Source of the DNA: an uncultured Lachnospiraceae bacterium
GTDB lineage: Bacteria > Bacillota_A > Clostridia > Lachnospirales > Lachnospiraceae
DNA: 7,494 bases
Direction: 5' to 3'
Assembly: GCA_947177885.1 (NCBI GenBank)
Contig: CAMWWF010000130.1
Location: 1 to 7,494, forward strand
Shown here piece by piece: positions 4,991 through 7,494 of the stretch (its first letter is position 1; each line of letters opens with the position of its first letter). The notes beneath the pieces were generated by a model. It ran no database searches. It had not been told where the DNA came from and saw nothing but the letters and a program-made list of their open reading frames with translations. Position numbers and translations under genes: made by a program.

Positions 4991-5635
4991 ATGCCGGAGA
5001 AGAAGCGGCTTGGAAGAGACTTTTTTACAAGGGATGGGATCACGGTGGCGAAGGAACTGTTGGGAAAAACTCTGGTCCACAAGACACCGCTGGGAACCGT
5101 GCGTGGCATTCTGACAGAGGTGGAAAGCTACATGGGCGAGACGGACAAGGGCGCTCACACCTACGGCGGCAGGCGCACGGCGCGGACGGAGCCCATGTAT
5201 CATCAGGGCGGCACCTCCTATGTCTATCTGATCTATGGTATGTACAGCTGTATGAATATAGCCGCCATGACAGAGGGAAATCCCCAGGCGGTATTACTGC
5301 GCCGCGTCATTCCTGCGGACGAAGATTCCGAACGGATCATGCGGCAGCTCCGCCTGGAGGAATGGAACAGGAAACAGTTGAAAAAGAAGAAAGAACCATA
5401 TACCATGGAGCGGTATTCCGCTTCTCTGGACAAACATCTGGCGGACGGGCCGGGGAAGCTCTGTGTTGCCATGCATATAACGAAAGAGGACAATGACATA
5501 GACATGGTGGAGAGTGCGGATTTCTATGTGACGGAAGGAATCGAGGTAAAGCCCTCCCGGATCCGGGCGGGAAAAAGGATCGGTATCGACTATGCGGAGG
5601 AAGCTGCAGACTATCTTTGGAGATTTTATTTATGA
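4991..5635 (+). CDS. mpg: 3-methyladenine DNA glycosylase, AAG/MPG family
   Basis: The 214-residue product has the usual length of bacterial homologues of human AAG/MPG, which flip alkylated or deaminated purines out of DNA and cut the N-glycosidic bond, starting base excision repair. The N-terminal LGRDFF motif is at 7-12. The catalytic segment is TEVESY (42-47), with E45 matching human Glu125 and Y47 the stacking Tyr127. G-x-x-D-x-x-A-H (49-56), YVYLIYGMYSCMNI, the LLRR strand and DGPGKLC complete the family signature. The human TPRN is TART here (63-66), so its Asn is replaced. A lysine-rich insertion (QLKKKKEP region) slightly lengthens the segment before DGPGKLC. The start at 4991 has AGGGAG 7 bases upstream; an in-frame ATG at 4973 preceded by AAAGG is the alternative. 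The stop overlaps the addB start by ATGA, so the two genes are probably translationally coupled and form a repair operon. Confidence 0.93.
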   Translation: MPEKKRLGRDFFTRDGITVAKELLGKTLVHKTPLGTVRGILTEVESYMGETDKGAHTYGGRRTARTEPMYHQGGTSYVYLIYGMYSCMNIAAMTEGNPQAVLLRRVIPADEDSERIMRQLRLEEWNRKQLKKKKEPYTMERYSASLDKHLADGPGKLCVAMHITKEDNDIDMVESADFYVTEGIEVKPSRIRAGKRIGIDYAEEAADYLWRFYL

Positions 5636-7432
5636 GCCTGAAATTTGTATTCGGACCTTCCGGGTCCGGTAAGAGCAGACAGATTTATAACGAGATCACG
5701 GAGCGGGCCGGGAAAAATCCAGGGCAGAATTTCCTGATCGTGGTGCCTGACCAGTTTACCATGCAGACCCAGAAAGAGCTGGTGCTGCTGAACGACCGGG
5801 GCGGTATCATGAATATAGACGTGCTCAGCTTCGGCAGACTGAACCACCGGATCATGGAGGAGGTGGGCAGGGAGGAGATCCCTGTGCTGGACGATACGGG
5901 AAAGAGTCTTGTGCTCCAGAAGGTGGCGGCGAACTTAAAGGAAGAGCTGCCCGTGCTGGGGAGCTTTCTGCACAGGCAGGGCTACATCCATGAGGTGAAG
6001 AGCGCCATCTCGGAGTTCATGCAGTACGGCATCGGCACGGAGGATGTGTCAAAGCTGATCGCGTATGCCGGCAGACGGGGGGCGTTGGCGGGAAAGCTGA
6101 AAGATCTGGAGACTTTGTATAAGGGCTTCACAGAGTATATCAGAGGCAATTTCATCACCACCGAGGAAACGCTGGATGTATTGCGCCGTTCCCTGCATAA
6201 ATCAAAGCTGCTTCCGGGCAGCGTGGTGGTATTTGACGGTTTTACCGGCTTTACGCCGATCCAGAACCGTCTGATCCGGGAACTGATGCAGGTCTGCGGT
6301 GAAGTGATCCTGACCGTCACATTGGGCCAGGGAGAAAATCCCTATGTGAAGGACGGGGAGCAGAAGCTGTTTTATCTGAGTAAAAAGACAGTGGCGGATC
6401 TGGAGAAGCTGGCGAAGGAGGCGGGAATTCCCAGAGAAAAGGATGTCTTTATCGGCACTTATCACCGCTTTGAACAGGCGCCTGCACTGCGGCATCTGGA
6501 AAAGAATCTGTTCCGCTATCCCTTTCAGCCATACGGAGAGGAGCAGTCGGAGATCCGTCTCTTCGAAACCACTACGCCCAGGGATGAGGTGCACCAGACA
6601 GGGCTGAAGATCCGGGAACTGGTCAGAGAGCAGGGGCTGGCCTATCGCGATATTGCGGTGATCATGGGGGATCTGGAGGGGTATGCTCCCTTTGTGGAGA
6701 CGGAGTTCGCCCAGATGGAAATTCCCTGCTTTATTGACAGGACCAGAGGGATTGCCTTAAATCCCATGATCGAGTTCATTAAGAGCGCACTGGAGCTTTT
6801 TGAGAAGAATTTTACCTATGAGGCGGTGTTCCATTATCTGAGGAGCGGAATGGCCGATCTGGAGCGGTCTGAGATAGACGAGCTGGAAAATTATGTGATA
6901 CGCACGGGGATACGGGGCTATCGCAGTTACAGCCGCCTTTTTACCCATAAGACGGAAAAGATGGAAAAGGACGAGGAGGCCCTGGAGCGCATCAATCACC
7001 TGAGAGAGCGGATGATGGAACAGCTTTCTCCCCTGGCCATGAAGAAGGAGGGGAGGGTAAAGGACTATATTGACGGGCTGTATGATTTTCTGGTGCAGAA
7101 TAAGGTGCAAAATAAACTGGTAGAATATGAAAGACAGTTTGAGGAACAGGGACAGTTGCCCAGAGCCCGTGAGTATGCCCAGATCTACAGGCTGGTCATG
7201 GAACTGCTGGATCAGATATACGAACTGCTGGGGGAGGAGACCATTCCCCTGCCGGAGTTCCGGGAGATCCTGGAGGCGGGTTTCGGCGAGATCCAGGTGG
7301 GCACCATTCCCCAAAATGTGGACAGAGTGGTGGTGGGAGATATGGAGCGCACCCGTTTAAAGCAGGTGAAGGTGCTTTTTTTCCTGGGCGTCAATGACGG
7401 CAATATTCCCAAGAACGCGTCCAAGGGAGGAA
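5632..7432 (+). CDS. addB: ATP-dependent nuclease/helicase subunit AddB, 3' end missing at contig edge
   Basis: AddB is the second subunit of AddAB, the Firmicute RecBCD equivalent that resects double-strand breaks and responds to Chi. The start at ATG 5632 has GGAG 9 bases upstream; a TTG at 5617 is less likely. Walker A is GPSGSGKS (8-15). VPDQFTMQTQ (38-47) and VLSFGRL follow, then a Walker B-like FDGFTGFTP near 202, and VVVGDMERTRLKQVKVLFFLGVNDGNIPK motif residues end at 594. This order matches the inactivated-helicase part of AddB, which in Bacillus subtilis reads Chi. Genuine sequence covers about 600 residues of a protein usually near 1,150, so the C-terminal nuclease domain and its iron-sulphur cysteines are absent. 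The frame appears to continue to a TAG at 7477-7479, but those 15 codons are sequencing adapter, so this is truncation by the contig end and not a pseudogene. addA is expected downstream. It overlaps mpg by four bases. Confidence 0.95.
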
Positions 7433-7494
7433 CTGTCTATTATAAACATCTGACGCTGCCTACGATACTCCTTGTGTAGATCTCGGTGGTCGCC
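7433..7494. other. Nextera/Tn5 sequencing adapter (artefact): mosaic end, i5 index, P5
   Basis: Bases 7433-7451 match the reverse complement of the Tn5 mosaic end with 2 mismatches (A for C at 7439 and 7445). 7452-7465 match GACGCTGCCGACGA, the read-1 Nextera tail, with one mismatch (T for G at 7461). 7466-7473 read TACTCCTT, the reverse complement of i5 index AAGGAGTA (S507/N507). 7474-7494 match the reverse complement of the Illumina P5 oligo over all 21 bases. This is read-through past a short insert that escaped trimming and was assembled onto the contig end. It supplies a false C-terminus (VYYKHLTLPTILLV) and a false stop codon to addB. Confidence 0.98.

Follow-up and report, generated by a model that had tools for sequence, protein, structure and literature searches.

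A Nextera adapter at the end of a Lachnospiraceae contig creates a false AddB C-terminus and probably escaped trimming through mosaic-end errors

Contig CAMWWF010000130.1 of an uncultured Lachnospiraceae bacterium (GenBank assembly GCA_947177885.1) carries at its end a reading frame for AddB, subunit B of the ATP-dependent helicase/nuclease, that stops after 615 residues, which raises the question whether such a short protein exists. The window analyzed here is the whole stretch from position 1 to position 7,494 of the forward strand. A preliminary description had proposed that its last 62 bases are untrimmed Nextera adapter with three mismatches, read in the order mosaic end, read-1 tail, i5 index and P5, and that the end of AddB is false. 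Each of these adapter parts was tested and found, and 59 of the 62 bases at 7433-7494 agree with adapter in this order:

7433..7451, forward strand: Nextera (Tn5) mosaic end, reverse complement, directly after the insert; 17 of 19 bases agree (C7A, C13A).
7452..7465, forward strand: Nextera read-1 tail GACGCTGCCGACGA, in reverse-complement orientation in the window; 13 of 14 bases agree (G29T of the joint 33-mer).
7466..7473, forward strand: i5 index S507, reverse complement; the window letters TACTCCTT are the reverse complement of AAGGAGTA (8 of 8 bases).
7474..7494, forward strand: last 21 bases of P5, reverse complement; 21 of 21 bases agree.

The 33-mer CTGTCTCTTATACACATCTGACGCTGCCGACGA corresponds to positions 7433-7465 on the forward strand with three mismatches (C7A, C13A and G29T, numbered in the joint 33-mer of mosaic end and read-1 tail), and none of 200 dinucleotide shuffles of the window matched it. 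Index S507 (AAGGAGTA) is printed alongside P5 in the accessible part of PMC7589761, and the mosaic-end sequence appears in the literature alongside the words Nextera and adapter. This confirmed that the last 62 bases are library-preparation adapter DNA, a sequencing artefact and not biology. Position 7494 is presumably the true end of the contig, since the sequence breaks off within P5.

The reading frame entering this adapter extends from the ATG at 5632 to the TAG at 7477-7479, its 615 residues being counted from a listed open reading frame of 620 residues that starts at the TTG at 5617. It is composed as follows:

5632..7431, forward strand: genuine 5' part of addB, 600 codons, based on Pfam PF21445 and the alignment with the relative L001.
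7432, forward strand: last possibly genomic base, an A that is the A of an ATC codon in the five closest relatives (alignment of L001-L004 and L045).
7432..7479, forward strand: false frame end, consisting of codons 601-615 (TVYYKHLTLPTILLV) and the TAG at 7477-7479; absent in all 80 relatives.

A Pfam search placed the ADDB_N domain (PF21445) at residues 5-290 with an E-value of 2e-87, and residues 1-600 matched L001 at 94% (best segment). Codon T601 is a hybrid formed by A7432 and two adapter bases. The earlier view that the terminal peptide and the TAG are not biological was correct, and only its detail had to be changed: the artefact peptide comprises 15 residues (601-615), the first of which is encoded by the hybrid codon. 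Because the genomic sequence stops at the junction, the second half of addB is absent from the contig.

As relatives of AddB, the best 80 were kept from at least 594 genome-contig stretches, 567 of which encode a relative. Normal AddB sequence runs on past the junction in all 80. The motif pattern preceding the junction matched 79 of them, each of which then shows the normal continuation [ILV][IL]SD[MI]DR; the 80th (L015) has GMNDG, which lies outside the pattern, and AddB continues there too. A stop codon follows 531-580 codons past the junction in 78 of the 80 relatives (in L015 at 542, counted from SDIDR), and in L025 and L059 the frame is still open where the contigs end. The DNA of the five closest relatives aligns with the window up to A7432 and diverges thereafter. 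A truncation of AddB common to the relatives was found in none of the 80. The preliminary description had named relatives carrying the 62 bases in place as the observation that would speak against it. The window's tail was present at none of the 80 AddB loci, and the 33-mer within three mismatches, a range that includes the canonical adapter, was present in none of 13 relatives' genomes; none of these relatives is shown to be of the same species, the closest one reaching 94% at the protein level. Thus, the 615-residue AddB is not real, as adapter follows the junction and all 80 kept relatives continue.

A protein search with residues 560-615 gave 337 proteins, the best 120 of which were examined. 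One of them, P0001 (607 residues; one contig, listed as 2763 bp; three member sequences), is identical to the window protein and ends with ...KGGTVYYKHL. It breaks at the same residue as the window protein and has the window's two mosaic-end changes, on a contig of different length. The shared break point suggests that P0001 and the window stem from the same library. The remaining 119 of the best 120 proteins have IISDMDREFL after PKNASKGG. The window's tail had also been considered a possible mark of other contaminated entries in protein databases; its KHLTLPT is the error form of THLTLPT. This idea held in kind: adapter-derived tails occur on viral frames, where open frames of 100 or more codons enter the adapter at 75 of 180 canonical adapter ends among the viral matches listed, giving the peptide tails VSYTHLTLPT, CLLYTSDAAD and LSLIHI. 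The window's own tail, however, is shared among the proteins listed by P0001 only, and there it ends at KHL. A protein search for the KHLTLPT tail, in which 8000 candidates were scored, gave none at an E-value of 10 or better, the 14 residues probably being too short, and a pattern scan for one adapter-derived peptide gave no match.

How did the adapter reach the contig and survive there? According to the accessible part of PMC3906532, short NexteraXT inserts are read through into the opposite adapter, which can affect de novo assembly. We are almost certain that the end of the window is read-through adapter carried over onto the contig end, with a short insert and escape from the trimmer as the likely route. 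A fragment of a Nextera/Tn5 library would have had an insert shorter than the read, and the read would have passed the insert end (7432) into the i5-side adapter, i.e. mosaic end, read-1 tail, i5 index S507 and P5. With two base errors in its mosaic end, the adapter would have gone unrecognized by a trimmer that accepts about one error per 19 bases, and would then have been placed on the contig end by the assembler. Since the addB frame happens to stay open in the adapter until a TAG supplied by the adapter itself, gene callers would predict an AddB of 615 residues. What our analysis adds to the preliminary description is this likely reason for the survival of the adapter. The adapter itself had been recognized correctly, and the word "untrimmed" should probably be replaced by "escaped trimming".

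The usual tolerance of trimmers follows a 10% rule, i.e. one error in 19, and the two errors in the 19 bases of the window's mosaic end exceed it. The error rate is defined as the number of errors over the matched adapter length in the accessible part of PMC5581536. Adapter was found in six of 397 genomes of the family by a scan with the window's form and up to three mismatches, a pattern that is biased to that form and has the canonical adapter within reach. The canonical mosaic end with up to three mismatches was searched in G346, G347, G385 and G542 and found at 29 places, the reversed control pattern giving 0, 1, 1 and 3 matches in the four genomes. Six of the 29 places were left out, five inside contigs and one at a contig end (L320) with a poor tail and three mosaic-end mismatches. 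In G346, G347 and G542, all 22 places counted as adapter ends carry two (n = 17) or three (n = 5) mosaic-end mismatches; none of the 22 has no or one mismatch, although the search would have shown such ends. Scans by tail, which did not use the mosaic end, agreed with this. Among 396 family genomes, the i7 tail was located at 16 places, spread over five genomes. The mosaic-end edit distance was at least two at all seven places in G346 and G347 (with no recognisable mosaic end in G347:C31), zero at all eight places in G149 and G163, and one at the single place in G367. The i5-tail scan gave one place in 392 genomes of the order (L294, two mosaic-end mismatches) and one place in 391 genomes of the class (L295, five mismatches).

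The 22 ends contain 49 mosaic-end substitutions (C>A 15, T>A 10, T>G 8, A>G 7, A>C 5, C>G 4). Changes of the types C>T, T>C or A>T are missing from this set, and the single G of the mosaic end was never altered. At the end of a 3104-bp contig of G347 (L267), the window's mosaic-end variant is combined with another index (reverse complement TTCTAGCT); this match first came from a pattern derived from the window's variant, so that the search was biased towards L267. A special recurrent adapter variant was considered and rejected. The 17 two-error strings represent 15 distinct ones, two of which were seen twice, and no special variant is needed because two or more coincident pairs have a P of 0.35 if errors are drawn from the observed ones (0.0037 for uniform errors). 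A signature consisting solely of C>A/G>T, which fitted all ten changes in the window, L267 and L294, was likewise dropped, as L264 differed and the wider set had other types.

Viral contigs provided a further sample of adapter ends. A degenerate pattern permitting the window's three changes matched at least 120 viral stretches. In all 120 matches listed the three variable bases are canonical, and 119 of these matches lie at most 87 bases from the end of the examined stretch, the contig extending beyond its stretch in at least one case (L143). When viral contigs were searched for the tail alone, 81 places in 79 contigs emerged, 76 of them with an exact mosaic end. The other five comprise two with single-base deletions, one with one mismatch, one without mosaic end and one with three mismatches inside a contig.

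Several points weigh against an escape from trimming caused by the errors. The 33-base stretch has three errors and its first 12 bases one, and a 10% rule on 33 or 12 bases would cut the adapter, so the escape would require a trimmer supplied with nothing but the 19-base mosaic end. Adapter survives in other ways too, as illustrated by one exact end in G385 and one place in G367 with one mismatch and 143 bases beyond it. Moreover, searches of the viral contigs gave no match to the exact 33-mer of the window or to its 19-base mosaic end. Even so, we regard it as likely that the window adapter slipped past a trimmer with a tolerance of one error in 19. A library that was never adapter-trimmed, in which the three errors are incidental, appears improbable to us: such assemblies exist (G149, G163 and G391 with 88, 40 and 13 i5-side matches and an exact mosaic end at the places listed), but adapter left in wholesale is nearly always exact (76 of 81 viral tails, all eight i7-tail places in G149 and G163), and two errors would be unusual. 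It is equally doubtful that the changes were already present in the library molecule, as products of oligonucleotide synthesis or PCR, and did not arise in base calling. P0001, with both changes on a contig of different length, would fit this origin, but may just as well be a re-assembly of the same reads. Polymerase errors favour transitions, and the 49 substitutions in the 22 ends include neither C>T nor T>C.

Explanations that leave the terminal bases in the genome fare far worse. The frame is open to the TAG at 7477-7479, as would be required for an authentic short AddB or for an addB truncated by rearrangement in this strain, but the catalogue index and P5 after the mosaic end and the continuation in all 80 kept relatives make either of them extremely improbable. 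The mosaic end was derived from the ends of Tn5, and for this reason addB might be imagined to carry the inserted end of a natural Tn5/IS50-type transposon; the synthetic read-1 tail, the catalogue index and P5 that follow directly render this the most remote of all explanations considered. Short-insert read-through with escape from the trimmer is thus the explanation we prefer. Extending it, we lean towards the view that trimmed public assemblies hold hidden contig ends consisting of adapter only, with at least two mosaic-end errors and a cut-off that mirrors the trimmer tolerance. If this is true, exact-match screens are blind to such ends, which give rise to scaffold gaps flanked by adapter and to sets of similar false C-terminal peptides.

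Some further observations on adapter in assemblies were made along the way. G149, G163 and G391, all of the family Lachnospiraceae, are heavily contaminated public assemblies with 117, 32 and 15 i7-side matches, respectively (e.g. L265, L269 and L268). At 340-372 of L295 (G970:C80), an error-carrying adapter end with an exact read-1 tail is adjacent to a stretch of N within a scaffold. Two viral contigs show possible adapter-bridged joins: in L204 (61.7 kb), i5 adapter and poly-A are internal and followed by other sequence, and in L082 internal adapter adjoins NN.

At the opposite end of the window, positions 1-59 form a perfect inverted repeat (26 bases, 7-base loop), which starts at the very first base and is followed by TTTT. 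Possible explanations are a terminator, an assembly break caused by the repeat and a fold-back artefact. None of 295 loci, of which few span the corresponding place, contains a 21-base piece of the repeat exactly. Positions 378-758 on the minus strand match the T-box leader (RF00230, E 6.8e-19) with 85.5 bits versus a gathering score of 93, and no open frame on this strand exceeds 96 codons between the window start and the T-box. DNA at about 357-802 is conserved, in part or as a whole, in five of seven relatives' genomes, and 1-350 gave short matches only.

The biological interest of the contig end is low, but it is of some use for database hygiene. Annotation of the contig would falsely yield a short AddB that lacks its second half. 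This contig and the 22 similar ends would go unnoticed in a screen for the exact mosaic end; screens should allow about three mosaic-end mismatches and be limited to contig ends and scaffold gaps. The tails VSYTHLTLPT, CLLYTSDAAD and LSLIHI and their error forms can serve as warning signs in protein databases. In a literature search, nothing was seen on error-carrying adapter that escapes trimming, which is no proof that no such report exists, and for adapter-derived peptides only unrelated work appeared, judging by the listings.

Compared with known systems, residues 1-600 of the window protein resemble ordinary Lachnospiraceae AddB with respect to PF21445 and the relatives, whereas the nuclease domain PF12705, present in many of the homologues listed, is missing from the window protein. 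The Nextera read-through described in the accessible part of PMC3906532 concerns reads; in the window, the adapter has become part of an assembled contig, where it produces a false C-terminus. Adapter at contig extremities has been reported for metagenome-assembled genomes and isolates across MGnify databases despite reported trimming (PMC11536531; Moeller et al., 2024, accessible part). In the accessible main text of that study the words mismatch, Nextera and protein are absent. It relied on exact matches to a 12-base TruSeq sequence, whereas the window carries Nextera adapter with errors in the recognition stretch itself.
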